Positions 31,937 through 46,027 of a stretch of 64,000 nt of DNA are shown one piece after another. This DNA comes from Chelativorans multitrophicus (GTDB taxonomy: Bacteria; Pseudomonadota; Alphaproteobacteria; Rhizobiales; Rhizobiaceae). Numbering within the stretch: position 1 is the first letter of the stretch; every line of letters begins with the position of its first letter. Position numbers and translations under genes: made by a program. The stretch is from the NCBI RefSeq assembly GCF_011317445.1, contig NZ_JAAAPL010000002.1, positions 372,001 through 436,000 on the forward strand, in the 5' to 3' direction. The notes under the pieces are model-generated. The model did not search any database, was not told where the DNA came from, and saw only the letters and a list, made by a program, of their open reading frames with translations.

Positions 31937-31956
31937 TGATTTTATTAGCTAATTTC

Positions 31957-31972
31957 TTGCAACGCGTTGCAA
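31957..31972. repeat. Dispersed palindrome, copy 1
   Basis: TTGCAACGCGTTGCAA, a perfect 16-bp palindrome (18 with flanking C/G); centre CG swapped relative to the family. Between two leftward small genes. Confidence 0.75.
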
Positions 31973-31993
31973 GTTTCCGAGTTCGCGGGAAAT

Positions 31994-32248
31994 TCAGCGA
32001 TTGCCCCGCACCTTGTCCAGCAGCATGAGGAAAAACGCGCGGGCGAACACCGCTGGCCAGATAACCACAAGCAGAACCAGCGCGACCAGAGCAGCAAGAT
32101 CAAGCTGCCGAAGGGCGGCTAGGGCATTCTGAGAATCTGCGTGCGGCGTTCCGTGCATCGATGCATTTCGAATTGCGCCGCCGATGAACATCCAAGCTCC
32201 AGCCGTCCAGAGCGCCGCCACCAGCGCAACCATTGTGAGCGTGCTCAT
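31994..32248 (-). CDS. Small membrane protein
   Basis: 84 residues with two hydrophobic helices ('MVALVAALWTAGAWMFIGGA' and 'LAALVALVLLVVIWPAVFA') and a basic end ('LLDKVRGNR'). Its start overlaps the stop of the upstream leftward gene by 4 bp, so the two are coupled. It may be a superinfection-exclusion-like protein or a holin-like hairpin. The leftward, early-region position argues against a lysis role, but this is not settled. Confidence 0.55.
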   Translation of the reverse strand: MSTLTMVALVAALWTAGAWMFIGGAIRNASMHGTPHADSQNALAALRQLDLAALVALVLLVVIWPAVFARAFFLMLLDKVRGNR

Positions 32249-32421
32249 TGAACTGTGTCTCCGTGGGCCGGCGAGATAAGCCGGTACGCATGACTTAGAG
32301 CCTCTTCGAAGCTCATCGGGTTTGTGGCGGCGCGGCGGATATCCTGCGCGATTTCAAGAAATTTTTCCCGGTGCGGTTCGTGGGGCGGTTTAATCGCCTT
32401 TGTTTCAGTGCAAGCTTTCAT
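32245..32421 (-). CDS. Small hypothetical phage protein
   Basis: 58 residues from an ATG with GGGGA six bases upstream; an upstream Met at 32445 lacks such a site. The sequence is helical ('HREKFLEIAQDIRRAA', 'SFEEALSHAYRLI') with no recognised domain. It heads the leftward pair with the small membrane protein and faces the rightward early gene across a structured 320-bp region. Confidence 0.5.
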   Translation of the reverse strand: MKACTETKAIKPPHEPHREKFLEIAQDIRRAATNPMSFEEALSHAYRLISPAHGDTVQ

Positions 32422-32505
32422 TTGAAGTCCCCGTTGTGTCGGCATTGCTCACGGGAACCAAATTACCGCGCCGACTTAATAGAGCGCAAGAGGGGATCAA
32501 AATAT

Positions 32506-32533
32506 ATGTAGGCAACAAAACTGTGTTCTACAT
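32506..32533. promoter_or_regulatory. Candidate early-region operator
   Basis: ATGTAG and CTACAT form the ends of a 28-bp imperfect inverted repeat with an AAAC centre, midway between the divergent leftward and rightward early genes. A phage repressor site is plausible, but no repressor gene is recognised. Confidence 0.35.
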
Positions 32534-32633
32534 GCGGCGGCAAAGTACGAAGTCTTAGTCAACAGCATAGATCGAGACCCCAAGGGGAACATGTACTGTA
32601 AATCGCCTGTCCGCCGTGCTATGGGAAAAGTGC

Positions 32634-32670
32634 GCGGTTCGACCGCCTTGCGCGAGGTGGCGGACTTTTT
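32634..32670 (+). promoter_or_regulatory. Attenuator-like leader hairpins
   Basis: CCGCC (32643) pairs with GGCGG (32659), followed by CTTTTT: a terminator shape. An alternative hairpin GCGGT/ACCGC (32634-32646) uses the same left-arm bases, so the two are mutually exclusive, as in an attenuator. It lies about 75 bp before the early gene start. Confidence 0.45.
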
Positions 32671-32672
32671 AG

Positions 32673-32736
32673 GCGGGGGCGGCTCCACACTTTTTCCTTT
32701 GGTCGGGAGTGGGCCGCCCCCGCAGACCAAAGGAAA
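32673..32736 (+). promoter_or_regulatory. Leader switch that can hide the Shine-Dalgarno site
   Basis: An 11-bp GC stem (GCGGGGGCGGC at 32673, GCCGCCCCCGC at 32713), extended by CCAC/GTGG, has a loop containing TTTCCTTTGGTC (32693-32704). That loop is perfectly complementary over 12 bp to GACCAAAGGAAA (32725-32736), which includes the Shine-Dalgarno site of the gene at 32743. The two helices compete, giving open and closed translation states. Confidence 0.6.
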
Positions 32737-32742
32737 TCCGAA

Positions 32743-33567
32743 ATGGCGAACACGGCAGAAGTGTATTCTTTCCCCGGCAGAGGCGCGGGGAATAACGATT
32801 CAAGCAGTACAAAAAATCCGGCTAGGAAAAAGCCTAGAGAGTGGCGCAAGCACGGCCATTATGGGCCGGATAACAACGGATTGGATGACGCGTTGGCACA
32901 ACTAGGTGCCGTAAGGCAGTTTTGCCGTGAATGGCTGGAACTTCCTGCCCGCGAAGTCAAGATGCTACTCTTCATCTTTGGCGAAACTGTATTGTGGGGA
33001 AAGCCGGAAAAACTATTTACCCATGAGTTCATCGAGAAGGGTTTTGACGGTCCAAAGGGGAACAGAGGAACGGGTATCGGCAGAACCCAATCTAAAGAGA
33101 TACTGGCCTCCCTCGAAGCCAAGGGATTGATTGCTGTGAATCGCTCCGGACTTAAAAAGGGAATGATTATTCGCCCAAACATAGACTGGAACCCCCCGGC
33201 CGCGCCCGCCATCCCAGATGCACCCCCGGAGGGAGTACGGATACGTCAACGCCCCTCTGATCGAAGGTCTCTTGAGACGTCCACGCTAGAGCGAACCATG
33301 CGCAACGCATTAATGCGAGAATACACCAAGGTTCCCGCAGCGAACATGAGGCCGTGGACGGAACACCAACATTCTATGGTCGCGCAAGCAATTAGAGGAC
33401 ATTGGTCTGGCATGGGAGTCGAGCAATGCCACGCGTTCATTGATTGGCTAGTGGAGCGCTGGGCCGGCCTTGGTGAGTTTTATACCATGCCACAATACCC
33501 GGACATAGATTTCATCTGCATCCACGGCAGAGTGCTCCGTTTGGAGTTCGAAAATGCTCAAAAATGA
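32743..33567 (+). CDS. Phage early protein with winged-helix-like region (replication or regulatory)
   Basis: 274 residues starting behind AAAGGAAA. After a basic N-terminus, residues about 60-140 ('LPAREVKMLLFIFGETVLW' ... 'GRTQSKEILASLEAKGLIAV') read like a winged helix of the kind in phage replication-initiation or RepA-like proteins. A Pro-rich linker and a helical C-terminal domain follow. I do not recognise a specific family. Two palindromes follow directly (33579-33617), and a related GGAAATCCGA sits at its own ribosome-binding site. These are possible binding sites. Confidence 0.6.
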   Translation: MANTAEVYSFPGRGAGNNDSSSTKNPARKKPREWRKHGHYGPDNNGLDDALAQLGAVRQFCREWLELPAREVKMLLFIFGETVLWGKPEKLFTHEFIEKGFDGPKGNRGTGIGRTQSKEILASLEAKGLIAVNRSGLKKGMIIRPNIDWNPPAAPAIPDAPPEGVRIRQRPSDRRSLETSTLERTMRNALMREYTKVPAANMRPWTEHQHSMVAQAIRGHWSGMGVEQCHAFIDWLVERWAGLGEFYTMPQYPDIDFICIHGRVLRLEFENAQK

Positions 33568-33578
33568 AGGGTTCTGCT

Positions 33579-33617
33579 GGTCGGAAATCCGGCCACTCAC
33601 CGGTCGGAAATCCGACC
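33579..33617. repeat. Tandem palindromic sites
   Basis: GGTCGGAAATCCGGCC (33579-33594) and GGTCGGAAATCCGACC (33602-33617); the second is a perfect 7-bp inverted repeat around AA, the first has one mismatch. They are 23 bp apart and start 12 bp after the early gene stop. Confidence 0.75.
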
Positions 33618-33830
33618 CCAATATAGAAGAAGGGTAGAAGAAGGGGATTTTAGAAAGAGATTTTAGTAGCTCCGGAACGCCCGCTTACGCGGTCGCCCGG
33701 CCTCGTCTTCCGGCTTTTCTTTTTCTGAGGCGAATGTCCGGCAGCGTCAGCGCTCGATTTCCCCGGCGAAAAAAAACCGACCCCGGTTCCGCCGGCCACC
33801 ACCAATCTGAGTCGCCCTGAACAATGAAAA

Positions 33831-33846
33831 TTGCACCCGGTTGCAA
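33831..33846. repeat. Dispersed palindrome, copy 2
   Basis: TTGCACCCGGTTGCAA, one change from the 16-bp family palindrome; 125 bp upstream of the candidate structural promoter. Confidence 0.75.
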
Positions 33847-33956
33847 AATCGGTCGCAAGACAGAATAGGCAGGAATTTATCGTCTGTTTTAAAAGCAACT
33901 AGTTGACTAATAAAGTGTATCTTGCTATCGATTAAAGTATATTTTAGATCAATACC

Positions 33957-33987
33957 TTGACAAATCCGCCATTTTTGTGGGATTTAT
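33957..33987 (+). promoter_or_regulatory. Candidate promoter of the structural operon
   Basis: A perfect TTGACA (33957-33962) is followed at 18-19 bp by GATTTAT, a weak -10. An AT-rich upstream stretch supports a strong promoter. It points into the portal-first operon. Confidence 0.45.
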
Positions 33988-34020
33988 CTTTCCGGCTCGT
34001 TGTGGTTCGGGCTTAAGAGC

Positions 34021-34056
34021 GGTGCCGCGTTCCCTCGCCCTTTCTGGCGCGGCACC
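34021..34056 (+). other. Leader hairpin upstream of portal gene
   Basis: GGTGCCGCG and CGCGGCACC form a 9-bp perfect stem with an 18-nt pyrimidine-rich loop, 27 bp before the portal start. It is likely a 5' mRNA stabiliser or operator; no U-run follows. Confidence 0.55.
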
Positions 34057-34082
34057 GATCCTTTCCACCCCGGAGAAAGATA

Positions 34083-35333
34083 TTGTCCCGCTTCAGTTTT
34101 TTCCGCCGCGCCACACAGACAGCCGCCGACGCGGCGACGGAACAGCGTTCGCTTGCCGGCCCTGAAGATTGGTTGATTGAGTTATTCGCCGCTGCCCCGG
34201 CGTTGTCTGGCGTATCGGTCTCACCGCACACCGCCCTTCGCGTTCCCGCCGTCCGTGCTGCCGTCGAACTGATCGCGGGCACCACCGGCACCCTGCCGGT
34301 AAAGGTTTTCCAATCGGCTGACGGCACGAGCAAGGAAGTCGCACACGATCATCCGGCAGCGTCGATTGTCCATCGCGACGCCAATCCCTGGACATCGGCC
34401 GGAGCGCTTCGCTCACAACTCACCATGGATGCCATGTTGAACGGCGGCGGCTTTGCTTTTGCGAACCGTGACCGCGATGGCCGTGTTGTCGAACTTGTCC
34501 GGTTATCTCCGACCGCCGTCATGGTCGAAACAGACACCCTGACCGGCGAGCCGCGTTTCCGCGTCACGGAAGGCCGTGGGCAACACATCTACGGATTTCG
34601 AGACATTATCCATATTGCTCCGCTCGCATCGCTGGACGGCGTGAAGGGCGAAGCGCCTATCCGCTCTGCCCGTGAGGCCATCGGGCTTGCCGTCACGCTC
34701 GAAGCTCACGCGGCACGGCTCTTCGCCAATCAGGCCCGCCCCTCCGGTATTTTGAGTTTCGCCAAGAGCTTGACCGCAGACGCGGCGGCAAAGATGAAAC
34801 AGTCTTGGCAGAGCATGACCGCCAACGGCGGAACCGCCGTGCTTGACGCAGACGCTACTTATACGGCGCTCACCCTCAAATCTACTGACAGTCAGTTCCT
34901 TGAGCTTCGCCAATTCCAGATTTTGGAGATCGCGCGAGCATTCAATGTGCCTCCTACGTTCCTGGCCGATTTCTCTCGCGCTACATGGTCGAACATCACG
35001 GAAGCCAACCGGCAGCTCGTGACGTTCTGTCTTATGCCTTGGTTCCGGGCATGGGAGGCCGCTTACCGCCGCGTCCTGCTTTCGGACGAAGATCGGCAGG
35101 CAGGCATTACCGTTGAGTTTGTCGTGGACGGCCTCTTGCAAGGCAACGCAACCGAGCGGGCCGAAGCCGTCGCCAAATGGCGGGCCGCTGGCGTTATGAC
35201 CGCGAACGAAGCCCGCCGCCTCGAAAACCTTCCCGCCATGGATGGCGGCAACAAGCTGGAAAATCCCTATACTTCCACGGGCAAGGCCGAAAATTTGCAA
35301 CCGGTTGCAAAAAAGGAAAAGGCCGATGCCTGA
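34083..35333 (+). CDS. Phage portal protein, HK97 family
   Basis: 416 residues from TTG with GGAGAAAG upstream. It fits the HK97-type portal: 'VSPHTALRVPAVRAAVELIA' near the N-terminus, 'DAMLNGGGFAFANRDRDG', 'RLFANQARPSGILSF', the wing/stem part ending 'QILEIARAFNVPPTFLADFS' and 'WFRAWEAAYRRVLL'. It forms the dodecameric head vertex for DNA entry. It is unusual as the first gene, with no terminase before it. A dispersed-repeat palindrome is translated near its C-terminus as 'LQPVAK'. Confidence 0.95.
   Translation: MSRFSFFRRATQTAADAATEQRSLAGPEDWLIELFAAAPALSGVSVSPHTALRVPAVRAAVELIAGTTGTLPVKVFQSADGTSKEVAHDHPAASIVHRDANPWTSAGALRSQLTMDAMLNGGGFAFANRDRDGRVVELVRLSPTAVMVETDTLTGEPRFRVTEGRGQHIYGFRDIIHIAPLASLDGVKGEAPIRSAREAIGLAVTLEAHAARLFANQARPSGILSFAKSLTADAAAKMKQSWQSMTANGGTAVLDADATYTALTLKSTDSQFLELRQFQILEIARAFNVPPTFLADFSRATWSNITEANRQLVTFCLMPWFRAWEAAYRRVLLSDEDRQAGITVEFVVDGLLQGNATERAEAVAKWRAAGVMTANEARRLENLPAMDGGNKLENPYTSTGKAENLQPVAKKEKADA
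35295..35310. repeat. Dispersed palindrome, copy 3 (perfect)
   Basis: TTGCAACCGGTTGCAA; 18 bp when flanking T/A is counted. Inside the last codons of the portal gene, read as LQPVA. Confidence 0.95.
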
Positions 35334-35670
35334 CCTTCCGACGCATCGCCGGTTTTTCGGGGACCGGGAACACGATTTCCGGCTTACGCCCGAACTCATC
35401 ATTGAGCTTGAACGCGTCACGAATACGGGCATCGGCGGCCTGTTCCGCCGTTTCTTACAGCGTGATTTTCGGCATTCCGAGCTTTTGGAAATGGTCCGCC
35501 TTGGCTTGATCGGTGGTGGAGCCGACCCGAAGGAAGCAGCCGCACTTATAGCCGCCTACGCCGTGCCGCTCCCCGTGATGGAGCTTTATGTGCTGGCACT
35601 CACCATCATCGAAACAGTCATGTTCGGGCACGCGCTGGATACTGCCGAGAAGAAGGAGGCGGAGAAATGA
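35326..35670 (+). CDS. GTA gp10-like tail assembly chaperone family protein
   Basis: 114 residues: 'HRRFFGDREHDFRLTPELI', 'LERVTNTGIGGLFRRFL', 'HSELLEMVRLGLIGGGADPKEAA'. This is the pattern of the gene-transfer-agent gp10/Phage_TAC_11 family of small tail proteins. It overlaps the portal stop by 8 bp and the protease start by 4 bp (ATGA). In canonical phages and GTAs this gene follows the major tail protein; here it is between portal and protease, and another chaperone-like gene occupies the expected place. The family call is good; the role is inferred. Confidence 0.75.
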   Translation: MPDLPTHRRFFGDREHDFRLTPELIIELERVTNTGIGGLFRRFLQRDFRHSELLEMVRLGLIGGGADPKEAAALIAAYAVPLPVMELYVLALTIIETVMFGHALDTAEKKEAEK

Positions 35671-36227
35671 CTACGAATTTTGCAACCGGTTGCACAGAAA
35701 TCCGTAGTGCCCACCCCGGCGACACGCTGGACGTGGAAGTCCGCTTTTCGTCCGTTGGTGAAGGTGGTGAGATCGAAGGCACCGCCGTCCGCTTCAATGT
35801 CGTGGACAGCTACAGGACGCAGTTCGCGCCGGAAGCCTTTGCCAATGTGCGCGGGCCGATACCAATGTTGTGGTCGCATGACCCGGCGCAAGTGATCGGC
35901 TCTTGGTCTTCTCTTCAGGTGCGCGGCGAAGCCCTGACCGCCAAGGGCAAGCTTAACCTTGCCGTCGTCAAAGCGCAGGAAGTCCGGTCCCTCTTGCAGG
36001 CCAAGGACGTATCCGGCCTATCCATCGGCTTCCGCACCGTGAAGGACGAACGCCGCGCGAACGGCGTTCGCCGGATCACAGAAGCCCGTCTTCATGAGAT
36101 TTCGATTGTCGCTTTTCCATCCGTTCCGGGGAGCGGCGTGACCTCCGTCCGAGAAACAGGCCGCGAGAGCGCAGCGGCCTTTGTTGCAACGTGCCGCAAG
36201 GCCGCGCTCGCTCTGAAAGGAAACTGA
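35667..36227 (+). CDS. HK97-family prohead protease
   Basis: 186 residues of a U35-type serine protease: 'IEGTAVRFNVVDSYRTQFAPEAF' core, catalytic His H71 ('PMLWSHDPAQVIG') and Ser S119 ('VSGLSIGF'), and 'LHEISIVAFPSVPGSGV' at the end. It cleaves the capsid scaffold domain during maturation. The first codons run through a dispersed-repeat copy, read as 'NFATGC', so the extreme N-terminus is likely not functional in itself. Confidence 0.93.
   Translation: MTTNFATGCTEIRSAHPGDTLDVEVRFSSVGEGGEIEGTAVRFNVVDSYRTQFAPEAFANVRGPIPMLWSHDPAQVIGSWSSLQVRGEALTAKGKLNLAVVKAQEVRSLLQAKDVSGLSIGFRTVKDERRANGVRRITEARLHEISIVAFPSVPGSGVTSVRETGRESAAAFVATCRKAALALKGN
35680..35695. repeat. Dispersed palindrome, copy 4
   Basis: TTGCAACCGGTTGCAC, 15 of 16; in codons 5-10 of the protease gene in a different frame from copy 3. 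Confidence 0.85.
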
Positions 36228-36228
36228 C

Positions 36229-37398
36229 ATGACCAAGCATATGAAAATCGAAACGCGTTCCGAACCGCTCGAAATCCGCAGCGATGAGAACACCGACCCC
36301 GTTGCAGCCGCGACGGCGGCGGTCGAGGAACTTCGCTCCGCGTCGGAACAATTCCGCACGTCGCAGGCCGAAGCCCTTCGCGCTGCAAACGACCGCATTG
36401 CCGCGCTCGAAACCCGCCTTTCCCGTCCGAACGTCCAGACCGAACAGCGCAACGAGCCAAGCATCGAACAGCGCGCCTTCAACAATTTCCTGCGCTTCGG
36501 CAATACCAATCTCAGCGCCGACGAACAGCGCGCCCTCACGGTCTCGACCGACGCGGCAGGCGGCTTCCTTGTGCCCGATAATTTCGTTGCCGAGATGCTG
36601 CGCAATGTCGTCCAGTTCTCGCCCGTGCGTCAGTATGCGCGCGTGATGAACGTGGCCGGCGCGAACGTCCGCATGCCGAAGCGCACCGGGACCATGACCG
36701 CCGCGTGGGTTGCTGAGACCGGTGACCGCGCCAGCACCCAACCGGCCTATGGCGAGGTGGAACTGACCCCGTTTGAAGCGGCATGCTACGTCGATATCAG
36801 CAATCAGTTGCTGGAAGACAGCGCGTTCAACCTCGAAAGCGAACTCGCATTCGACGCGGCGGAAGAGTTCGGCCGGCTGGAAAGCGTTGCATTCGTCGCC
36901 GGAGACGGCACGGGCAAGCCGAAGGGCATCCTCGCGGATACGGGCATCGCAACCGTAGTGTCAGGCAACGCCTCGACGCTGGGCACCGCACCAGCCGACA
37001 AGCTGATTGACTTGCTCTACAAGCTCGCACCGGCCTATCGCCGCAATGCAACGTGGGCGCTCAATTCCACGACGCTGGCATTGGTGCGCAAGCTGAAGGA
37101 CAGCCAGGGTAATTTCTTGTGGCAACCGGGCATCGCCAACGGACAGCCAGAGACGATCCTTGGCCGTCCCGTCGCCGAGATGCCTGACATGCCGGACGTG
37201 ACGGCGGACGCCCTGCCAATCCTGATCGGTGATTTCCAGCAGGGATACCGGATCGTGGACCGGGTTTCGCTCGCCGTCCTGCGCGACCCCTACACCATGG
37301 CGTCCAAGGGTCAGACCCGGTTCCACATGCGCCGTCGCGTCGGCGGCGGTGTAGTGAAGGCCGAAGCCTTCAAGGCGCTGAAAATCGCCGCCTCCTAA
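36229..37398 (+). CDS. Major capsid protein, HK97 family
   Basis: 389 residues: an N-terminal coiled-coil delta/scaffold domain (about 1-95, 'AAATAAVEELRSASEQF', 'RAANDRIAALETRL') removed by the protease, then the HK97 fold beginning 'STDAAGGFLVPDNFVAEML' with 'GDGTGKPKGILA' and the C-terminal 'RVGGGVVKAEAFKALK'. It starts 1 bp after the protease stop. Confidence 0.96.
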   Translation: MTKHMKIETRSEPLEIRSDENTDPVAAATAAVEELRSASEQFRTSQAEALRAANDRIAALETRLSRPNVQTEQRNEPSIEQRAFNNFLRFGNTNLSADEQRALTVSTDAAGGFLVPDNFVAEMLRNVVQFSPVRQYARVMNVAGANVRMPKRTGTMTAAWVAETGDRASTQPAYGEVELTPFEAACYVDISNQLLEDSAFNLESELAFDAAEEFGRLESVAFVAGDGTGKPKGILADTGIATVVSGNASTLGTAPADKLIDLLYKLAPAYRRNATWALNSTTLALVRKLKDSQGNFLWQPGIANGQPETILGRPVAEMPDMPDVTADALPILIGDFQQGYRIVDRVSLAVLRDPYTMASKGQTRFHMRRRVGGGVVKAEAFKALKIAAS

Positions 37399-37496
37399 TC
37401 GACAGCACGGGCGGCGGGGATAAACCCTGCCGCCTAACCCCTGAAACCCGATTGAACGCCGTGACGGCAGTCCAGTCCCTTAGAAGGATTTTTTCC

Positions 37497-37967
37497 ATGA
37501 TCAGCGCAACAGCGAAATCGAAAATCAGCATCGGCACGACCGCTGCCGCAACCGACGCAACCAGCTTCGCCGCAGATACCTACACGCCAATTAGCAATGT
37601 GGAAGACATGGGCGAAGTCGGCAGCGAGGCCGAAATCCTTGTCGGCAAGTACGTTGACCAAGACTTTGTGCGGAAGTTGAAGGGAAGCCGTGACAACGGC
37701 ACGATGACAATCGTCGTGGGCCGCGATGCCGCCGACGCGGGGCAACTTGCCCTCAGTGCCGCCGAGCAAAGCAGCCTGCCTTTCAACTTCAAGGTGGAGC
37801 TTAACGACAAGCCCAATCCGACCGGCACCAACAGCGTTTTCTATTTCAAGGCCATTGTGGGGAGCGCCCGGCATTCCCTTGGCGGCGCCGACGATATCAC
37901 GAAAACCACGTTCGCACTGGCTATCAGTGGCGCGATTATCGAAGTTCCCGCCACGGCAGGCGCTTAG
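37497..37967 (+). CDS. Phage tail tube protein
   Basis: 156 residues: 'ISIGTTAAA', 'YTPISNVEDMGEVGSEAEI', 'KGSRDNGTMTIVVGRDAADAG', 'FYFKAIVGSARHSLGGADD', the pattern of siphophage tail tube proteins of the lambda gpV / Phage_TTP type. The ATG at 37497 has AGAAGGA upstream. It follows the capsid gene after 98 bp without the usual head-tail connector genes between; those lie 2 kb downstream. Confidence 0.85.
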   Translation: MISATAKSKISIGTTAAATDATSFAADTYTPISNVEDMGEVGSEAEILVGKYVDQDFVRKLKGSRDNGTMTIVVGRDAADAGQLALSAAEQSSLPFNFKVELNDKPNPTGTNSVFYFKAIVGSARHSLGGADDITKTTFALAISGAIIEVPATAGA

Positions 37968-37977
37968 TTCGAGAACT

Positions 37978-37993
37978 TTGCAACCGGGTGCAA
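37978..37993. repeat. Dispersed palindrome, copy 5
   Basis: TTGCAACCGGGTGCAA, 15 of 16; between tail tube stop and the next ATG, where the ribosome-binding site would be. Confidence 0.8.
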
Positions 37994-37999
37994 AATCCC

Positions 38000-38581
38000 A
38001 TGAGCATCGCGAATGACATAACCATCACGATAGGCGGGGAGCAAATCACTCTCCGCCCGTCATTGCGTCATGCTATCCGCCTAGAACGACGCGAAGGTTC
38101 CTTTGCCCGGCTCATGCGTGAGGTGGCGGAAGACAGCTTGTCAGCGGCACATGAGATCATTGGGCCGCATTGTCCGCACCTCTCCCCGGCTGACGTTCTC
38201 GACGCGGGCTTGTCCAACCTGAAATTCCCTTTGATCGCCTACATCGGCAGATGCACGGGTATCGAGACCGAAGACGCTCCCGCCGAAGGTGAGGACAAGG
38301 GCAGCGCCGAAGGCAAGACCGTCACCATTTCCGAGCACCTTAACGGGCTCTACCGCACCGGCACCGGTTGGCTAGGCTGGACCCCAGCCGAAACCCTCGA
38401 CAGCACCCCCGCCGAAATCATCGAAGCCTACAAAGGCCGGATGGAGATGTTGAAAGCGATCTTCGGCGGCGGGGAAGACAAGCCCAAACCAGAAACCAAA
38501 GCCTTTACCGACGACAATGTGAAGTCTGCTTTCCGCGCGTTGGGCACTGTCATCCAGACGGCGGCGGGAAAGGCGGAATGA
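38000..38581 (+). CDS. Tail assembly chaperone-like protein
   Basis: 193 residues: N-terminal beta part 'TITIGGEQITLRPSLRHAIR' as in tail chaperones, a middle 'GLSNLKFPLIAYIGRCTG', and an acidic C-terminal half with 'EIIEAYKGRMEMLKAIFGG'. The position after the tail tube gene is the usual one for gpG/TAC proteins. The ATG at 38000 lacks a Shine-Dalgarno site other than bases of the dispersed repeat; a GTG at 37988 inside the repeat is an alternative. No slippery frameshift site was obvious. Confidence 0.7.
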   Translation: MSIANDITITIGGEQITLRPSLRHAIRLERREGSFARLMREVAEDSLSAAHEIIGPHCPHLSPADVLDAGLSNLKFPLIAYIGRCTGIETEDAPAEGEDKGSAEGKTVTISEHLNGLYRTGTGWLGWTPAETLDSTPAEIIEAYKGRMEMLKAIFGGGEDKPKPETKAFTDDNVKSAFRALGTVIQTAAGKAE

Positions 38582-38582
38582 G

Positions 38583-38924
38583 ATGCCTATGCGTGCTCCA
38601 TCCCTTCGCGCTTGCGGTTGCGTCGTCGCTCCCGGTCAGCGTTGCAAGCACATGATCGATGCCGACCGCGAACGTAAAGCCCGTCACGACCAGCAACGCC
38701 CCACCGCACGCCAGCGCGGCTATGATAGCAAGTGGGAAAAGGCGCGGGCAGAATACCTTGCAGCCAATCCACGTTGTTTCATGTGCGGCCAACCTTCCCG
38801 CGTCGTGGATCACAAGACCCCGCATAAGGGCAATCGCAAGCTCTTCTGGCAGCGATCGAACTGGCAATCCCTCTGCACGCCCTGTCATAGCTCGAAAAAG
38901 CAAAGCATGGAGGCGAGGCAATGA
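38583..38924 (+). CDS. HNH endonuclease
   Basis: 113 residues with the zinc-bound beta-beta-alpha HNH site: 'CFMCGQPSRVVDHKTP' (Cys pair and DH), 'WQRSNWQSLCTPCHSSKK' (N, second Cys pair, H). An N-terminal third Cys pair ('LRACGCVV') is also present. In HK97-type phages HNH proteins assist terminase in packaging; here it lies 2.6 kb before TerL. It starts 1 bp after the chaperone gene. Confidence 0.92.
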   Translation: MPMRAPSLRACGCVVAPGQRCKHMIDADRERKARHDQQRPTARQRGYDSKWEKARAEYLAANPRCFMCGQPSRVVDHKTPHKGNRKLFWQRSNWQSLCTPCHSSKKQSMEARQ

Positions 38925-39391
38925 CTCCCGCCGAACGCGCCCGCAAAATCGAACAGGAAGAGTTCGCAGCGGAGTGCAGAGCTGCCCGCGCCCGCGCGCT
39001 CGCCTATTCCAAGGAATGCCGACAGCTAGAAGCCGCAAAGGTCGAAGCGTGGATGCGCGACAGATGGGAAAATCCCGCCACGGTTCGTTTCAACACAATT
39101 CGATGTTTTGAGCGCTCCAAGTTCTACACCTTCGATGGCAAAGCCCTGACACTAACCCAGTGGGCAGCAGAAACCGGCATCCCCCTTCAGACGCTTAGAT
39201 ACCGCATTGACAAAGGATGGCATCTCCAACGTGCTCTTACCGAGCCGGTTATGAACCGGGCGCAACGCGCCAAGCTTCACCGCCGCAATGTCGAGATCAT
39301 CCGCAACATGGTCCAGCACTTCAGGAAAGCCCAGCGCACACCCTGTCATTCCACCCGCGACCAACGGGAGGAACACACATGCAGCAGCTAG
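38921..39391 (+). CDS. Hypothetical phage protein with HTH/NUMOD-like segment
   Basis: 156 residues: an N-terminal charged helix, then 'KALTLTQWAAETGIPLQTLR' with 'YRIDKGWHLQRALTEP', the short DNA-recognition motif found beside homing-type HNH proteins and in phage hypotheticals, then a basic tail. It overlaps the HNH gene by 4 bp and may act with it. Its stop shares the palindrome CTAG with the stop of the opposite-strand gene that follows. Confidence 0.6.
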   Translation: MTPAERARKIEQEEFAAECRAARARALAYSKECRQLEAAKVEAWMRDRWENPATVRFNTIRCFERSKFYTFDGKALTLTQWAAETGIPLQTLRYRIDKGWHLQRALTEPVMNRAQRAKLHRRNVEIIRNMVQHFRKAQRTPCHSTRDQREEHTCSS

Positions 39392-39879: not shown

Positions 39880-40048
39880 TCGATCCCCCTCCGCAAGCGT
39901 TCACTGACGCCGAAACAATACCTTCACCAACAGCCAGCGAGCAAGCACGGGCCGGGGGGTACTCGACAATTTCCCACCGTCCCTTGGGGACCGGCGTGGG
40001 GAGGCACGCGCGCGATTTGCAATCAGAAAAGTTGATGGGTAGGACGTT

Positions 40049-40336
40049 ATGATCAATTCCATTGAAGATACAAAGGCCTTCCTCAACGTCACCGGCAGCG
40101 ATGACGACGCGCTGATTACGTCTCTGATTGAAGCTGCCGAAAGCTGGATTGACCGTTGGCTTGCAACGCCGATGGCCGAAATGGCCACAGTGCCCGCCGA
40201 CCTGAAACACGCGGTCAAAATGCTTGTCGGGCACTTCTATGAGAACCGGGAAGCAACCTTAGTCGGCGTCACTGCCGAGGAAGTCCCCTTTGGCGTGTGG
40301 GATATCGTCAACCAACACCGGGCATGGAGCTTTTAA
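40049..40336 (+). CDS. Head-tail connector protein (gp6-like)
   Basis: 95 residues: 'DTKAFLNVTGSDDDALITSLIEAAESWIDRWL'-type pattern (given here in part) and 'LKHAVKMLVGHFYENREAT', typical of HK97 gp6/phage_gp6-like DNA-packaging connector rings below the portal. It starts the second block of the operon, right after the leftward accessory gene. Confidence 0.9.
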   Translation: MINSIEDTKAFLNVTGSDDDALITSLIEAAESWIDRWLATPMAEMATVPADLKHAVKMLVGHFYENREATLVGVTAEEVPFGVWDIVNQHRAWSF

Positions 40337-40337
40337 A

Positions 40338-40754
40338 ATGGCGAAATCCGCACAGCTTGCCCGCCTACAACAGCGCCTAGACGCCATCCCGAAGGCCGTT
40401 AAAAAGGCCGTGGAACCGGCGCTGAAGAAATCCGGCGATGAGATGGCCGCAAGCATGCGCCACCTCGCTCCCGTCGACACCGGGGAGCTTCGCGATAGCA
40501 TCGAAGTCACCGCGCCGGGACAATCGACACCGCGCTATTCCCAGCCGGGCGGTTCCCGCGAGGCGGCAGAGAATGAAGTGCTGATCACTGCCGGAAACAG
40601 TGACGTGCGTTACGCTCACCTAGTCGAATACGGCACGGCAGACACCGAAGCGCAGCCGTTCTTTTGGCCGGCCTTCCGGCTGAATAGGAAGCGGGCGACG
40701 AACCGCATAAAGCGCGCCATCTCCAAGGCCGTGAAAGAGAATTGGGGGAAGTGA
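40338..40754 (+). CDS. HK97 gp10-family head-tail protein
   Basis: 138 residues: 'MRHLAPVDTGELRDSIEV', 'VLITAGNSDVRYAHLVEYGT', 'PFFWPAFRLNRKRA', the HK97_gp10/minor tail Z-like fold at the head-tail junction. The ATG at 40338 is 1 bp after the connector stop; its own stop overlaps the next start (TGATG). Confidence 0.92.
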   Translation: MAKSAQLARLQQRLDAIPKAVKKAVEPALKKSGDEMAASMRHLAPVDTGELRDSIEVTAPGQSTPRYSQPGGSREAAENEVLITAGNSDVRYAHLVEYGTADTEAQPFFWPAFRLNRKRATNRIKRAISKAVKENWGK

Positions 40755-41161
40755 TGGAGCCGAGCTATACCCTCACAGTCGCGATACATGCCCGCTTGGT
40801 CGCATCATCCGCCGTCACGTCTCTTGTGCCGGCAACGTCCATCGGCGACCACAACGGCCTACCGACGACCTTTCCATGCGTCATCATCGGGGAAGGGCAG
40901 ACCTTGCCGGACGATGGCATTTCCCGCAACCGGCATGAAGTCTTCGCGGACCTTCATATCTGGCAAACCGAACTAGGGCTGACCGGCGCGAAGAATATCG
41001 CTGGGGCCATCCGTGCCGCCCTGTCCGATGGCCCGCTTACCGCCACTGGACTGCATGTCGTGGGCCTACAAATTGCTTCGACCCGGTTTCTTCGCGACCC
41101 GGACGGCAAACACTCTCACGGCGTCATGTCGATCCGCGCGCGTGTGATGGAGGTGGCGTGA
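40754..41161 (+). CDS. DUF3168 family tail completion/terminator protein
   Basis: 135 residues: 'YTLTVAIHARLVASSAVTSL', 'TTFPCVIIGEGQTLPDD', 'HEVFADLHIWQTELGLTGA', 'HSHGVMSIRARVME', the pattern of DUF3168 (gp17-like) tail terminator proteins that cap the tail tube. Coupled on both sides by one-base stop/start overlaps. Confidence 0.88.
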   Translation: MEPSYTLTVAIHARLVASSAVTSLVPATSIGDHNGLPTTFPCVIIGEGQTLPDDGISRNRHEVFADLHIWQTELGLTGAKNIAGAIRAALSDGPLTATGLHVVGLQIASTRFLRDPDGKHSHGVMSIRARVMEVA

Positions 41162-41478
41162 TGCGTGCCGGGAAGCTCGACAGGACGATTACAATTCAGC
41201 GGTTCACCGAGACCTATGACGAAGTAGGGACACCCGTACAGGAGTGGGCGGACCTCGCCACCGTCCGGGCGCAGATCATCCAAGTCACGACCGAGGAGTT
41301 CACGCGCGGATGGGGAGCATCGTCGGAAGCCGCCATCGTCTTCCGCATTCGCCATATCAACGGTCTCACACTTGCCGACAGGGTTTCCTATGGCGGCAAG
41401 ACCTATGACTTGAAAGAGGTGAAGGAGATCGGCAGGCGGCGCGGTCTCGACCTTCGCGCGACGGCGGCGGAGGGCTGA
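41161..41478 (+). CDS. Phage head closure / head-tail adaptor protein
   Basis: 105 residues: 'AGKLDRTITIQRFTETYDEV', 'EWADLATVRAQIIQVTTEEF', 'DRVSYGGKTYDLKEVKEIGR', the SPP1 gp16-like head closure family that joins the connector to the tail terminator. It starts on the base ending the DUF3168 stop. The TerL start follows only 3 bp after its stop. Confidence 0.92.
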   Translation: MRAGKLDRTITIQRFTETYDEVGTPVQEWADLATVRAQIIQVTTEEFTRGWGASSEAAIVFRIRHINGLTLADRVSYGGKTYDLKEVKEIGRRRGLDLRATAAEG

Positions 41479-41481
41479 AAA

Positions 41482-41497
41482 TTGCAACCCGTTGCAA
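41482..41497. repeat. Dispersed palindrome, copy 6
   Basis: TTGCAACCCGTTGCAA, 15 of 16; its first three bases are the likely TTG start of terL. Confidence 0.85.
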
Positions 41498-43167
41498 AAT
41501 CCGAACCGATGATCAGGAGGCGCACCCGCCCGTTGCAACCGGTTGCAAATTCCTTCCCTGATATCCCCGACCCGTTCGGCTACGGGCAGCGGGCCGTTGA
41601 TTTCCTTCGATCCCTAAAGCACCCGAAATCCCGCCTTCCAAATAAGGCATTCCAGCTTGACCCCTGGCAGGAAGAAATCGTCCGCGTGATCTACGGCCCG
41701 TGCGATGAACACGGCAATCGTATCGTTTCCGATGTTGTGATCCTGATCGGCAGGGGCAACCGCAAGACCTCGCTCGGCGCGGCTCTTTCCTTGCTTCACA
41801 CCCACGGACCGGAGGCCGTGCCGGGCGGCGAAGCCATCTTCGCGGCCGGCGACAAAAAGCAGGCCCGTATTGCCTATCAGGAAGCCCTTGGCATTCTCCA
41901 CGCCGGAGACGCAGACCTATGGAAGAAGGGGCAGGCGAACCGGGCAACCGACCCGACGAAGACCATCCGCATTCAGGATTACCGGAACACGATCCAGTTT
42001 CCGAACGGCTCTTTTCTCGAAGCCATATCGAACGATCACGGCACCCAGCACGGGCGAACGCCGGCCTTTGCCCTTTGCGATGAATTGCACGCATGGGCGC
42101 GGCGCGATCTTTGGGACGTTATCGACACGGGCTTGACGAAGACCGCCAACAGCCTTCGCGTCACCATCACCACGGCAGGCCGGGGCCAGGATACTATCGG
42201 TCATGAAGTGATCGAACGTGCCCGCAAGATCGCGCGCGGCAAGATCATAGAACCCAGCACCTTAGCTTTTCTCTTTGAAGTGCCCGCCGAAGCGGATTGG
42301 CGCGACGAAAGCCTATGGCCGCTCGCCAATCCGGGCATCCCTCACGGTTATCCGCCGCTCGACAAGCTCCGCCAGAAAGCCCGCGTTGCCGAAGACAGCC
42401 CCGGCGCGCGTGACGCCTTCAAAATGCTGCACCTCAATATGTGGCTCGACCGCAGCACGTCGCCCTTTGTCGAAATGTCGATTTACGACCGGGGCAATAA
42501 GCCTATCAACGTTGAAGCCCTTGCCGGCCTGCCGTGCTGGATAGGCGTGGACCTTGGCATGACGGATGACCTTTCCGCCGTTGTCGCTGCCTTCCGCGAC
42601 CCCGACCTTGACGAAGGTTATATCGTCCTTCCGTTCTTTTTCATGCCCGCCGACAATGTGGAAAAGCGGCAGACGCAATCGGGCTTCCCCTATGCCGAGC
42701 ATGTAGCCGAAGGCCGGATTACCACCACGACCGGGAACGTCACCGATTACCGCGTGATTGAAGACGCCATCCGCGATCTTTGCGAAACCTATCAGGTGCG
42801 GGAAATCGCCTTCGATCCGCACTATGCCGGGATGCTCATGAACAACCTGCTTGAAGACGGCTATCCCGCCGTTTCCTTCCGGCAAGGCTGGGTCACCATG
42901 GGTCCGGCCATCAAAGAGCTTGAACGGGCAATCCTCGCCGGGCGCTTCCGCCACGGCGGTCATCCCGTGTTGCGATGGAACTTCGCCAACATCGCTATTC
43001 AGGACGACGGTAAGGGCAACAAGTCTTTCAACAAGGCCAAGTCCACCGAAAAGATTGACGGGGCCGTAGCAACAGCCATGGCCGTTGCCCGTGCCGCTGC
43101 CGGCGAAGGCGATGTACGTTCGATTTTCGATGACCCGAAGGTCACCGCTCAAGACCTTGTGTGGTGA
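41482..43167 (+). CDS. terL: Terminase large subunit
   Basis: 561 residues. The ATPase has 'VVILIGRGNRKTSLGAALSL' (Walker A region) and 'FALCDELHAWA' (Walker B), and the RNase H-like nuclease acidic residues are in 'WIGVDLGMTDDLSAV', 'EIAFDPHYAG' and 'EKIDGAVATAMA'. This is HK97-type TerL. The TTG at 41482 has GGAGGG seven bases upstream and lies inside a dispersed-repeat copy; an ATG at 41509 has no such site. The first 25 residues come largely from two repeat copies. TerL after the connector genes, without TerS, is not the usual order. Confidence 0.94.
   Translation: MQPVAKSEPMIRRRTRPLQPVANSFPDIPDPFGYGQRAVDFLRSLKHPKSRLPNKAFQLDPWQEEIVRVIYGPCDEHGNRIVSDVVILIGRGNRKTSLGAALSLLHTHGPEAVPGGEAIFAAGDKKQARIAYQEALGILHAGDADLWKKGQANRATDPTKTIRIQDYRNTIQFPNGSFLEAISNDHGTQHGRTPAFALCDELHAWARRDLWDVIDTGLTKTANSLRVTITTAGRGQDTIGHEVIERARKIARGKIIEPSTLAFLFEVPAEADWRDESLWPLANPGIPHGYPPLDKLRQKARVAEDSPGARDAFKMLHLNMWLDRSTSPFVEMSIYDRGNKPINVEALAGLPCWIGVDLGMTDDLSAVVAAFRDPDLDEGYIVLPFFFMPADNVEKRQTQSGFPYAEHVAEGRITTTTGNVTDYRVIEDAIRDLCETYQVREIAFDPHYAGMLMNNLLEDGYPAVSFRQGWVTMGPAIKELERAILAGRFRHGGHPVLRWNFANIAIQDDGKGNKSFNKAKSTEKIDGAVATAMAVARAAAGEGDVRSIFDDPKVTAQDLVW
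41533..41548. repeat. Dispersed palindrome, copy 7 (perfect)
   Basis: TTGCAACCGGTTGCAA, 51 bp after copy 6, in codons 18-23 of terL, read as LQPVA as in copy 3. Confidence 0.95.
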
Positions 43168-43170
43168 ATT

Positions 43171-43186
43171 TTGCAACGGGTTTCAA
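43171..43186. repeat. Dispersed palindrome, copy 8
   Basis: TTGCAACGGGTTTCAA, 14 of 16; between terL stop and the tape measure start. Confidence 0.7.
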
Positions 43187-43201
43187 ATCTGAGGTAATCC
43201 C

Positions 43202-45637
43202 ATGGCAACCGAAGAAGAACGCCTTATCGTCTCGCTTGAAGCGAGGATGAACCAATTTGAGAAGAATTTCGCGAAAGCCAACCGCACCGCAAACGACAAT
43301 TTCGCCAAGATCGAGCGCCGCGCGAAGGAGTCGGGCGACCGACTTGAAACCTATCTTGGCAAGTCCACGGCCAATATAGCGAACAACTTCGCGGCGCTCG
43401 CCAGCAAGGCGACCATCGGCGTTACCGTTATGGCCGGCATCGTCACGGCATTTCGGCAGGTGGCAGGTTCCATTGCCGAGGTGGATAGGGAAGCCCGCAA
43501 GGCTGGAGTGACGGCGAAGACTTGGCAGCAATGGCAATATGTTGCGACCGCGACCGGCGCGAGCGTTGACGGCGTTACCGATGCCTTGAAAGAGTTGAAC
43601 ATTCGCGGTGACGAGTTCGCCAAAACTGGCAATGGCAGCGCGAAAGCCGCTTTCGAGGCGCTAGGCTACACTGCCGAGGAAGTCGCGAAGAAGCTGAAAG
43701 ACCCCAGCCGGTTTCTTGACGAGATCATAGGTAAGCTTCAGACGCTCGACGCCGCCGCACGCACCCGCATCCTTGATGACATGTTCGGCGGCACTGGCGC
43801 TGAAGAAATGGCTAAAGTTCTTGGTGCGTCCGTGGCAGAAATCCAGCGCATGCGCACCGAGGCCGCGACCTTCACTGATGAGCAGATTGAAGCGGCAAAG
43901 AAGATCGATGCCGAGTTCAACAAGATTTGGCGCAATTTTACCGTCTACGCGAAAAAAGCAGCGATTGAGAGCGTCGGCATTCTTGGACAGATCAAAAGCT
44001 TCCTTGGTGGTGAATGGCTTCCCGGCTATGACCAGATGGAGGAAAATCGCCGCTATTACGGTTCCGACGAGTTCCGGCTGAAGCGCCTTCAGGATGAGCG
44101 CGCGAACCTTTTGCGACAGATCGAGGACACGGAATCTTTTCCAGACAGTCAGGCGAAGGATTTCAACCTGCAATCTTTCCGCCGACAGCTTGAAGAGGTT
44201 GACGCGGAAATTGCGAATCTGACCGGCACGGGGGAGGGGCTTGACCAATCCCTTGACCAGCTTGGGGACACGACGCAACAGACAGGCGGCACCTTCGATA
44301 GCGCCGCGACCAGTGCAGCGAACTTCCAAACAGCGCTGGAAGAGCTGAAGGAACTTGTGCCGGACCTGAAGGCCGAACTGGACACGCTCGCTCAATCCGA
44401 CGCGATTGAAACCGCCTACCGGAAAGCTGCCGATGCTGCAAAGAACCGACAGGAATATGAAGCGGCAGGCCGTTGGCGGGACCGTGCTAGGGCATCGGCA
44501 GAGATCGAAGCACTTTCCGGCGATGTCATGGCACGGGGTAGGAAGGTCTACAGCCTTCTACGCGACCAAGGACTAAGCCATGCCGCTGCCGCTGGCATCA
44601 CCGGCAATGCATACCAAGAAAGCCGTTTTGACCCGACCGCAATGGGCGACGGCGGTACGTCTCACGGCCTGTTTCAGCATCACGGTCCCCGAATGAATGA
44701 CCTGTTGGCCTTCGGAGGCCGAGACAATGCCGCTATGCAGGTGGCCTTTGCCGTGCAGGAAATGCGCCGCAGCGGCCTGTTTGGCCGCATTAACTCTCTG
44801 TCCGATCCTGCTGAAGCTGCACGACTGTTTATGACTGAGTTCGAGCGTCCGCACCCCGACCATGCGAACCTCGCCGCACGACAAGGGTTTGCCCGCGTTG
44901 CTGGCGGCTGGGGCGATCCCGGCATGTGGGAAATGCCGAAGATTCCGGCCCCGGATATCGACCCGTGGGAAAACCTTCGCGAAGTTACCAGCGGCGTTAA
45001 AGACAACTTGTCCGATACGACCACGCAGGCCGAACAACTCGGCAGTATCGCCGGGACGGCTATTTCCGGCCTTGTGAGTGCCCTTGCAGACGGCAAAATT
45101 ACCGCCCAAGAGTTCTCGCAAATTCTTGCCCAGATCGCGCAACAGCTCCTCCAGATGGCGTTTAGCGGCATGCAAAAAGGCGCTCTGGCAGGCGGCAACA
45201 ACTTCCTCGCCGGCCTGCTGGGTGGTCTATTGGGCTTCTCTGGCGGTGGCAAGGTCTCAGGACCTGGCACCGGCACAAGCGACAGCATTCCCGCCCGTCT
45301 CTCCGATGGCGAGTTTGTGGTGAAAGCATCCGAAGCCCGCAAGCACGGCGCATTGCTCGAAGCCATCAACTCGGGCCGCGTGGCATCCTTTGCCGAAGGC
45401 GGTCACGTGGGCAGCACAACCGGCCTTGCCCGATCAATTGCCTCAACCAACAACACCACCTTTGCCCCGTCCATTGCGATCAATGTGGAAGGCGGTTCGC
45501 GCGGACCGGAAGCCGACAAGGCCATGGCAGAACAGATCGCCAAGGAGACGCGTGCCGCAATTCGCAAGGAAATGGCCGAGTTCGCACAAGACCAGATGCG
45601 GGCCGGCGGTCTCTTCAGTCAGAGGAAGACACACTAA
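43202..45637 (+). CDS. Tape measure protein with embedded phage tail lysozyme domain
   Basis: 811 residues. Residues 1-110 are helical ('LEARMNQFEKNFAKANRTA') with hydrophobic segments ('ASKATIGVTVMAGIVTAF'), followed by coiled coils. Residues about 450-560 form a lysozyme-like domain ('GRKVYSLLRDQGLSHAAAAG' then 'NAYQESRFDPTAMGDGGTSH'), matching Phage_lysozyme2-type tail lysozymes, with the Glu in 'QESRF' as likely catalytic acid. The C-terminal part has 'GGGKVSGPGTGTSDSIPARL', common in siphophage tape measures. It sets tail length; at roughly 1.5 angstrom per residue a tail of about 120 nm is expected. The start follows GAGG. Confidence 0.93.
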   Translation: MATEEERLIVSLEARMNQFEKNFAKANRTANDNFAKIERRAKESGDRLETYLGKSTANIANNFAALASKATIGVTVMAGIVTAFRQVAGSIAEVDREARKAGVTAKTWQQWQYVATATGASVDGVTDALKELNIRGDEFAKTGNGSAKAAFEALGYTAEEVAKKLKDPSRFLDEIIGKLQTLDAAARTRILDDMFGGTGAEEMAKVLGASVAEIQRMRTEAATFTDEQIEAAKKIDAEFNKIWRNFTVYAKKAAIESVGILGQIKSFLGGEWLPGYDQMEENRRYYGSDEFRLKRLQDERANLLRQIEDTESFPDSQAKDFNLQSFRRQLEEVDAEIANLTGTGEGLDQSLDQLGDTTQQTGGTFDSAATSAANFQTALEELKELVPDLKAELDTLAQSDAIETAYRKAADAAKNRQEYEAAGRWRDRARASAEIEALSGDVMARGRKVYSLLRDQGLSHAAAAGITGNAYQESRFDPTAMGDGGTSHGLFQHHGPRMNDLLAFGGRDNAAMQVAFAVQEMRRSGLFGRINSLSDPAEAARLFMTEFERPHPDHANLAARQGFARVAGGWGDPGMWEMPKIPAPDIDPWENLREVTSGVKDNLSDTTTQAEQLGSIAGTAISGLVSALADGKITAQEFSQILAQIAQQLLQMAFSGMQKGALAGGNNFLAGLLGGLLGFSGGGKVSGPGTGTSDSIPARLSDGEFVVKASEARKHGALLEAINSGRVASFAEGGHVGSTTGLARSIASTNNTTFAPSIAINVEGGSRGPEADKAMAEQIAKETRAAIRKEMAEFAQDQMRAGGLFSQRKTH

Positions 45638-45990
45638 TGGCCTACCCTGTTTTCACCCCACCCGGCATCGTCGACATTTCTCCCGGCTCCACACTGACCG
45701 TAAAGCCCCGCGTGCGCCGGGCAGGGTTCGGCGACGGTTATTCGCAGCGCACGGGCGACGGGCTCAATGCGATCAATCGGGAATGCTCTGCCGTCTTCTC
45801 TGTTCTGACGAGTGATGAAGCCGACGCCTTGACTAGCTTCTTTGAGGAACGCGCCGGCTACAAACCGTTCCTATGGACTCTTCCGGGTGAGTCGGTCGAA
45901 CGGAAATGGATAGCCAGTGAGTGGCAAAAAACGTACGCGGACGGGGCCATTGATATCAGTGCGGCTTTCGAAGAGGTGTTCGACCCGTAG
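45637..45990 (+). CDS. Phage minor tail protein (lambda gpM-like)
   Basis: 117 residues: 'FTPPGIVDISPGSTLTVKPRV', cut here as 'ISPGSTLTVKPRVRRAGFG' then 'DGYSQRTGDGLNAI', 'LTSFFEERAGYKPFLWTLPG' and 'WQKTYADGAIDISAAFEEVF', typical of Phage_min_tail/gpM. Its ATG overlaps the tape measure stop by one base. In lambda-like phages the tail-tip genes L, K, I and J follow; here the operon simply ends and a leftward gene lies beyond, so the tail-tip set is absent. Confidence 0.9.
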   Translation: MAYPVFTPPGIVDISPGSTLTVKPRVRRAGFGDGYSQRTGDGLNAINRECSAVFSVLTSDEADALTSFFEERAGYKPFLWTLPGESVERKWIASEWQKTYADGAIDISAAFEEVFDP

Positions 45991-46001
45991 GGCGGTGTTT
46001 T

Positions 46002-46027
46002 TTGCACCGGTTGCAAACGGTTGTGAA
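46002..46027. repeat. Dispersed palindrome, copies 9 and 10 (overlapping, degenerate)
   Basis: TTGCACCGGTTGCAA (one base short of the family) at 46002-46016, and TTGCAAACGGTTGTGA at 46011-46026, sharing bases; between the last structural gene and the leftward membrane gene. Confidence 0.65.

Follow-up and report, generated by a model that had tools for sequence, protein, structure and literature searches.

Dispersed palindromes with phage-specific centres in a small Chelativorans prophage and in large proteobacterial phages

We analysed a 64,000-nt window of the Chelativorans multitrophicus genome (RefSeq assembly GCF_011317445.1, contig NZ_JAAAPL010000002.1, positions 372,001 to 436,000 of the forward strand; coordinates below are those of the window), in which a 16.7 kb prophage sits in a tRNA-Asn gene. 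A 16-bp palindrome is repeated along this element, mostly at gene ends, recurs at the same places in part of the element's relatives, and is dispersed through other, larger phages of several proteobacteria, in which the centre between the half-sites is phage-specific. Judging from sequence, we give somewhat better than an even chance to the reading that these are stoperator-like dispersed sites, which would be bound by a phage-encoded dimeric regulator acting on transcription. The interpretation offered by a first-pass annotation of this stretch is thereby partly supported.

That annotation described a palindrome repeated about ten times, and the count held: TTGCAACCGGTTGCAA at up to three mismatches gave 10 matches, which all fall in the interval 31957 to 46026, the rest of the window being free of them; 0.21 matches were expected, and the maximum in any of 100 shuffles was 3. 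Exact copies begin at 35295 and 41533, copies with one change at 33831, 35680, 37978 and 41482, and copies with two changes at 43171 and 31957, the latter itself a perfect palindrome; two mutually overlapping copies with three changes each begin at 46001 and 46011. All the copies listed by the annotation were thus recovered, with one start corrected from 46002 to 46001. The eight better copies have the centres CCGG (five), CGCG, CCCG and CGGG (one each), and the flanks of the sites are A/T-rich. A weight matrix trained on relatives added two more weak matches, at 42074 in the terminase large subunit gene (TerL; 16.2 bits) and at 51069 outside the element (9.5 bits). Across the whole 4.82 Mb genome, 11 places matched TTGCAACCGGTTGCAA with at most two mismatches (backward control word, 1). 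The element accounts for 8 of these places and contains all four exact TTGCAAN4TTGCAA words; the similar density across the host chromosome that the annotation had named as counter-evidence was not seen. Its claim that the palindrome is confined to the prophage stands within this genome and fails beyond it, the same signal occurring in many other phages. The 14-mer TGCAACNNGTTGCA was present in 142 of 394 host-family genomes, and at least five such words occurred in only four of these (the Chelativorans genome itself, G000, and G085, G105 and G380); in G105, four of the six words lay within 20 kb, beside a TerL fragment.

A gene end is no more than 50 bp away from nine of the 10 copies but from only 20% of positions (P 4e-6, gene starts being assigned by judgement), in agreement with the annotation. 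The exception is TTGCACCCGGTTGCAA (33831..33846), some 240 bp 5' of the portal gene (34083..35333, plus strand; PF04860). At the left, TTGCAACGCGTTGCAA (31957..31972) lies about 20 bp upstream of a minus-strand open reading frame (ORF; 31730-31936). One exact palindrome (35295..35310) covers the final portal codons and adjoins the TAC_11 gene start, and the next copy (35680..35695) covers codons 5-10 of the prohead protease gene (35667..36227, plus strand; PF04586), the TAC_11/protease junction being sited in many relatives. Further copies lie between the major tail protein gene and the tail gene that follows it (37978..37993) and 4 bp past the head-closure gene (41482..41497), upstream of the likely ATG, 41509, of TerL (41482..43167, plus strand; PF20441, PF03354). 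The second exact palindrome (41533..41548) falls in the TerL N-terminal linker, a placement common to many relatives, and a further copy (43171..43186) lies between the TerL stop and the tape-measure start, likewise in the loci L041 and L057. The two overlapping weak copies (46001..46026) stand just 3' of the last tail gene, at a convergent junction with the ORF 46055-46765; such a junction is also sited in L053, L056 and L058.

Relatives were found by TerL (IMG/VR loci, best 80 of 223; named-genome loci, best 80 of 84), and 72 of 247 host-family genomes gave a TerL match. The close kin, comprising L041-L071, L080 and the window's element (32 sequences), have much the same late-gene order, with some genes moving further out. 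They held 88 matches at 9 bits against 1 in reversed sequence, and sites of at least 17 bits numbered two or more in 15 sequences, one in 6 and none in 11; these bit scores are only descriptive, because the matrix scanned the very sequences whose sites had served to train it, while plain-pattern counts are independent of it. Some of the site-free kin are short contigs and others are 15-18 kb long (L049, L054, L061, L065, L069); in fragments, 'not found' does not equal absence. The next loci, L072-L079, gave nothing above 12.6 bits. The 94 loci L134-L227 gave 35 matches of at least 12 bits, a count excluding two (of 37) in own-genome loci fetched by pattern, against 4 in reversed sequence, and 29 of the 35 lay in seven loci (L135, L136, L137, L139, L156, L214 and L217). 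The annotation had also named relatives with the late genes but no copies as counter-evidence; this outcome occurred in part, with 15 kin having at least two strong sites and 11 having none, like L072-L079. Thus the sites belong to part of the family and are not required by the late genes.

Where sites occur in relatives, their places recur, chiefly at the TAC_11/protease junction and the TerL start, and further at the portal start, at the start of an HNH endonuclease gene (HNH1), in the tape-measure gene and at the convergent end of the late region. Most of the TerL-start sites fall within the N-terminal linker that joins a lysine-rich start to NPFPDIPDP, and they are read in differing frames; the linker site is an insertion between conserved protein segments, and other relatives are without it there. 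L055 has a pair of TerL sites 48 bp apart. Exact TGCAAYNNRTTGCA was counted in seven host genomes, where 25 of 32 copies lay in elements or their arms and the backward control word had 2 matches; one of the seven, G258, had no exact copy.

The same kind of site is dispersed through siphophages of about 80-110 kb, where the pattern TGCAA-N4-TTGCA occurs in 9-47 copies in 11 of 13 isolates, with 0 in the reversed-sequence control. With the centre left free, the copies number 47 in L338C, 40 in RHph_I4, 33 in JP1, 31 in DLP5, 31 in Summit, 30 in SM1, 29 in RcDurkin, 16 in HJ05, 16 in RHph_TM16, 15 in RHph_Y1_11 and 9 in RcZahn, and VHS1 (0) and PJ32 (1) are fully or nearly without sites; a pattern with the outer centre bases fixed misses JP1 and SM1, which the free centre finds. 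The 13 isolates were hand-picked from 229 and 232 portal matches of two site-bearing contigs, include the close-kin pairs DLP5/Summit, L338C/I4 and TM16/Y1_11, and in L338C include a phage that also surfaced in a pattern scan. Six of them were covered except for the final 0.3-8.4 kb, and the phages were scanned in 20-50 kb stretches, so that a site spanning a joint would be missed. A further 16 IMG/VR large-phage records were chosen for having sites. IMG/VR pattern scans in two forms had many other contigs among the matches listed; ten of the 199 pieces among these matches carried at least five sites, each piece of a single type, and none of the ten matched a window-element protein at E 1e-4. 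Elsewhere, large and small phages have a last-tail-gene homologue and a tape-measure motif in common. The site-bearing cultured phages are those of R. capsulatus, Rhizobium, Agrobacterium, Stenotrophomonas, Pseudomonas and Aeromonas.

The centres are phage-specific: CNNG in L338C and I4, CYRG with T..A flanks in HJ05, TCAA/TTGA in DLP5, TCGA in RcDurkin and ACGT in JP1, with SM1 having mixed A/G half-sites. The window's word, TTGCAACCGGTTGCAA, is also within the set of Aeromonas phage HJ05, in which 7 of 23 sites have the CCGG centre and 22 of 23 the T..A flanks, and whose sites likewise have A/T-rich flanks. The Rhizobium element L136 (C-type) and Rhizobium phage RHph_I4 have the same centre class (C..G), and their last tail genes are 58% identical. 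L338C also has 13 more copies with a one-base-shorter centre, TGCAAN3TTGCA. Since RcZahn and RcDurkin grow on one host strain and yet differ in their centres, the host does not set the specificity.

It is extremely unlikely that the sites are owned by a host regulator of the LacI or a similar type. Single or paired TGCAACCGGTTGCA words do occur in some related chromosomes, and we take TTGCAACCGGTTGCAA to resemble a LacI-family operator; but few other copies exist in host genomes, centres differ between phages of one host strain, and they are AT-rich in many relatives. A LacI-family operator set has a central CpG and a LacI-family gene nearby. The LacI-type set offered by the annotation found no support: centres elsewhere are TTAA, TCAA, TCGA and others, and the family was not seen among the element proteins scanned. 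A CRP/FNR box was rejected on arm spacing, the arms being presumably 2 bp too far apart. In chromosomes of one genus (g47; G046, G370 and G402), two TGCAACCGGTTGCA words lie 9-14 kb apart, perhaps as a host regulon.

The uniformity of centres bears also on whether the palindrome spreads by itself, as a mobile or recombination-boundary sequence with no trans-acting partner. Placement at gene junctions and presence or absence at one TerL position among relatives would suit such an origin, but the centre type is uniform within a phage and differs between phages, which argues for a trans-acting reader, and the gene order of close kin shows no shuffling at the sites; we consider it very unlikely. 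The annotation's suggestion of recombination boundary words was not supported, late-gene order being much alike in close kin with and without sites.

Sites lie at the same places in differing reading frames, so selection acts on nucleic acid and not on protein; here the annotation was right, and of its alternative 'DNA or RNA' DNA is favoured. Position 4/13 is non-complementary in 13 of 52 non-redundant small-prophage sites. In nine large phages, with four of the five arm pairs required to match, the fifth was altered in a single half in 72 cases, by a compensated double change in 7 and otherwise in 7, beside a consensus count of 238 per pair (19 matches in all in the reversed control); G-U pairing would still be open to at least 6 of the 72. 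The half-sites thus vary independently, which points to a DNA site of a dimeric protein and not to an RNA hairpin, and these substitution patterns demonstrate, at the level of sequence comparison, a constraint on DNA rather than on RNA or protein. Hairpins near gene starts that steer translation or processing are in our view highly improbable: copies do lie near start codons and perfect palindromes are able to fold, but the expected compensatory changes are few (7 against 72 non-complementary), and self-complementarity is missing from recurring TerL sites such as GTGAAATTAATTGCAA.

The large phages also bear on what the sites may do. Between-gene sites were enriched in all eight large phages tested, in which the intergenic share is 10-16% of bases: 24 of 52 in L338C (background 12% of bases), 19 of 43 in I4, 13 of 29 in RcDurkin, 9 of 24 in TM16, 11 of 34 in JP1, 8 of 30 in SM1, 6 of 23 in HJ05 and 8 of 31 in DLP5. 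No promoter-like element stood at a fixed distance from the sites in these eight, and beyond the immediate flanks no position exceeded 0.71 bit. A promoter or terminator attached to the sites was rejected, the flanks being without conservation. Intergenic enrichment and the lack of a fixed-distance promoter element fit, and do not prove, a gating of transcription. In the arrangement that we infer, a phage-encoded dimer would recognise two TGCAA half-sites, the fixed part, together with its phage's own four central bases, the phage-specific part; once bound near gene starts and ends, it would most likely act like the protein on mycobacteriophage stoperators, as a roadblock that stops or gates transcription on its way into one gene block after another, and late genes would be kept silent in the lysogen or have their timing set.

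A candidate for such a reader is encoded in many relatives, which have a Cro/C1-type helix-turn-helix (HTH) gene directly before HNH1, in the late operon. Homologues occur in 20 of 81 sequences, and each of the Pfam families HTH_26, HTH_31 and HTH_3 is found in 16 of 18 cases; the HTH is common to RcZahn gene 135 and a 100-kb IMG/VR phage, and a single-protein IMG/VR search with the HTH protein returned no relative. The sites might be operators of this protein, a late repressor feeding back on late genes, which we regard as unlikely though deserving of weight. In 50,697 phage records, homologues at E <1e-3 are limited to RcZahn, RHph_TM16 and RHph_Y1_11, all three of which carry sites (a fourth record has one at 7e-3). 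Ten small elements with the helix R(S/N/A)(T/V)x(R/K)R(F/V/S) each have at least two strong sites, and six elements or element groups with other helices have none or one strong site each (2x2 P 0.0015, for groups hand-made after seeing the data and with no kinship correction). Yet L156 and L136 have sites and other helices, and the protein was not found in the site-bearing window element, L066, L071 (a fragment), L137 or L214. The candidate appears in 5 of 29 large-phage records; as a general binder it was rejected, being not found in the window's element or in the other 24, several of them fragments. The elements L048-L054, with the differing helix RATLRRW or RTTLRRW, carry degenerate forms such as CGTGACATTGATTTCACC or CGTGACACTGATTGCACC at the usual TerL- and protease-start places.

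A divergent Arc/Mnt-like ribbon-helix-helix pair lies in the right arm of L041, L043, L044, L051, L053, L056, L058, L065, L068, L080 and others, with the longer gene on the minus strand, the shorter on the plus strand and element-specific repeats between; we take it to resemble a P22 immI-type module. As the binder it was rejected because its divergent promoter regions hold other, element-specific repeats (ten intergenic regions, by eye) and because it was not found in the window's element. The DLP5 annotation has a 'transcriptional regulator' and a 'transcriptional repressor', which may be candidates too.

Proteins that recur among carriers are structural and replication proteins, an AAA ATPase and ParB-like proteins, and the last of these raise the alternative that the sites partition or organise DNA, as parS- or N15-like centromeres or as ParB-like condensation sites. 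We hold this improbable overall, although it is the main competitor for the large phages. Palindromes of 16 bp in tens of copies would suit it; two ParB-domain proteins are described in DLP5 and DLP3, as is a phagemid lysogen in DLP5, in the portions available of PMC7326821 and PMC5834331. A ParB-like protein turned up in all nine carriers compared, and none in site-free VHS1, but four of the nine matches are of a different sort (by judgement) and VHS1 is a single negative phage. Pfam finds only the ParB N-domain in DLP5 gp114, and no gene named ParA appears in the annotated stretches of three phages, which falls short of the ParA and the ParB with a DNA-binding domain expected of a parS system. 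Nor did a two-sequence ParB profile find a ParB-like protein in any of 16 sequences of small site-bearing elements, and these elements are integrated and need no partition, so that the alternative fits them badly.

Returning to stoperator-like sites for a phage-encoded regulator, this reading is supported by copies that are non-random and bound to the element and by placements that recur in relatives in differing frames, and further by the dispersal through large phages, the phage-specific centres, the independently varying half-sites, the intergenic enrichment and the likeness to the genome-specific stoperator variants of cluster A. Several points weigh against it. Searches with 387 queries from three phages, in three rounds, brought out no regulatory-type protein family common to the carriers compared. 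The window's element has no visible binder candidate, neither the HTH gene nor the ribbon-helix-helix pair being found there, as the annotation had noted in seeing no repressor. Eleven of the 32 close kin have the same late genes and no site of at least 17 bits, and placement at gene ends may only mark where coding sequence tolerates sites. Stoperators, as far as the published accounts at hand go, are asymmetric and mostly in one orientation, and the present sites are palindromes. Finally, lysogeny is documented for DLP5 (PMC7326821) and DLP3 (PMC5834331) alone in the available portions of the literature, and for RcDurkin and RcZahn the table of PMC8601537, a source available in part, gives it as 'not determined', so that a role in lysogeny is unproven for most carriers.

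A wider scheme, to which we give an outside chance, is an addressing code common to proteobacterial phages, with the centre as the address and small prophages as satellites wired to a large helper phage's regulator. Small prophages with no tail tip, some with no visible reader, would carry the large phage's address, and the helper's protein would silence or release the satellite's late genes, a helper-satellite link that we likewise infer. What suggests it is the presence of the window's word in the HJ05 set and the centre class and last tail gene that L136 has in common with RHph_I4. The C-terminal tape-measure motif is common, and site-free VHS1 matches too; tail-protein matches are therefore weak as proof of a helper. 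The signal itself is strong and genome-wide, reaching 47 copies per phage, and its carriers include phages already sequenced and in culture. Should it prove to be the address of a regulator, it would open a direct way into their gene control, predict which of them share or exclude each other's control, and make the switching-on of small tail-incomplete prophages testable, and culturable hosts make the binder findable.

The element that carries the window's copies is integrated at a tRNA-Asn gene (30218..30292, plus strand; ARAGORN). An attL-like repeat over its 3' end (30276..30304, plus strand) is a direct repeat 86% identical to the attR-like repeat at the element's right end (46981..47009, plus strand), and the pair probably represents the att core. 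A tyrosine integrase with a DUF6538 N-terminus (30480..31748; PF00589, PF20172) is followed by a 274-aa protein (32743..33567) with no Pfam or PHROG match, conceivably a winged-helix protein of replication type. The late region runs from portal to tail, with the terminase placed after the head genes, and includes the major capsid protein (36229..37398; PF05065), the HNH endonuclease (38583..38924; PF01844), a tape-measure protein with tail lysozyme (43202..45637; PF18013, with PF10145 below cut-off) and the last tail gene (45637..45990; PF05939), these genes, the integrase and the 274-aa protein all being on the plus strand. Between the last tail gene and attR, no hub, fibre or lysis gene was recognised by ORF list, Pfam or PHROG. 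With lengths of 14-19 kb in 46 of 80 IMG/VR loci (best 80 of 223), the window's element and its kin are possibly satellites or tail-incomplete phages. A variable slot 3' of the last tail gene holds a Shedu SduA, KAP NTPase or PIN_12 protein in relatives (L214:15723-16907; L055:6362-8332; L137:14396-15526) and an unassigned membrane-like protein in the window (46055-46765); its cargo is possibly defensive. A similar lysine/arginine-rich N-terminal tag (such as MALKIAKK, MAIIIKKK or MPIIIKKK) stands on many unrelated proteins of RcDurkin, RcZahn, RHph_I4 and L337, and the small-prophage TerL also starts with a lysine/arginine-rich tag.

In the parts searched of the literature on DLP3, DLP5 and R. 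capsulatus phages, the palindrome is unmentioned, and wider searches, with most subscription-journal papers outside their coverage, gave the same result; no literature on L338C was found. The available part of PMC8601537 does describe repeat sequences, for clusters RcC and RcD; RcDurkin belongs to RcF and RcZahn is a singleton. The annotation's comparison with stoperators proved the best of the three readings that it offered. According to the portions available of PMC6550527 and PMC9283540, cluster A mycobacteriophages (L5, Bxb1, Trixie) have up to 30 dispersed repressor sites, most of them not promoter-associated, which are genome-specific variants of one consensus (PMC6550527). The present sites resemble these in their many copies over one phage genome, scarce in the host, and in a consensus that is alike within a phage and varies between phages. 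They differ in their fixed half-sites, variable centre and proteobacterial phages, and in being palindromes, whereas cluster A stoperators are, in the same partly available accounts, 13 bp long, asymmetric, mostly in one orientation and served by a known repressor. Three other systems invite comparison. Streptomyces phage phiC31 reportedly carries a conserved inverted repeat that serves as operator at many intergenic places, in a single phage and with a repressor of its own; the code here differs in being common to several phage groups. The SAS/ESAS repeats of cluster K mycobacteriophages are short repeats found where genes begin, one being an inverted repeat, and are tied to translation starts, whereas the present sites keep no fixed distance from the start codon. 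N15 centromere sites and RK2 KorB operators are dispersed palindromes for regulation and partition, with few copies and the partner gene beside them; in the small prophages, no such partner was found by the ParB profile (16 sequences). Dispersed repressor sites are a known kind of system, and what is new here is that the sites are palindromes with fixed half-sites and a centre particular to each phage, that they extend over several proteobacterial phage groups and small prophages, and that many of these show no evident reader.

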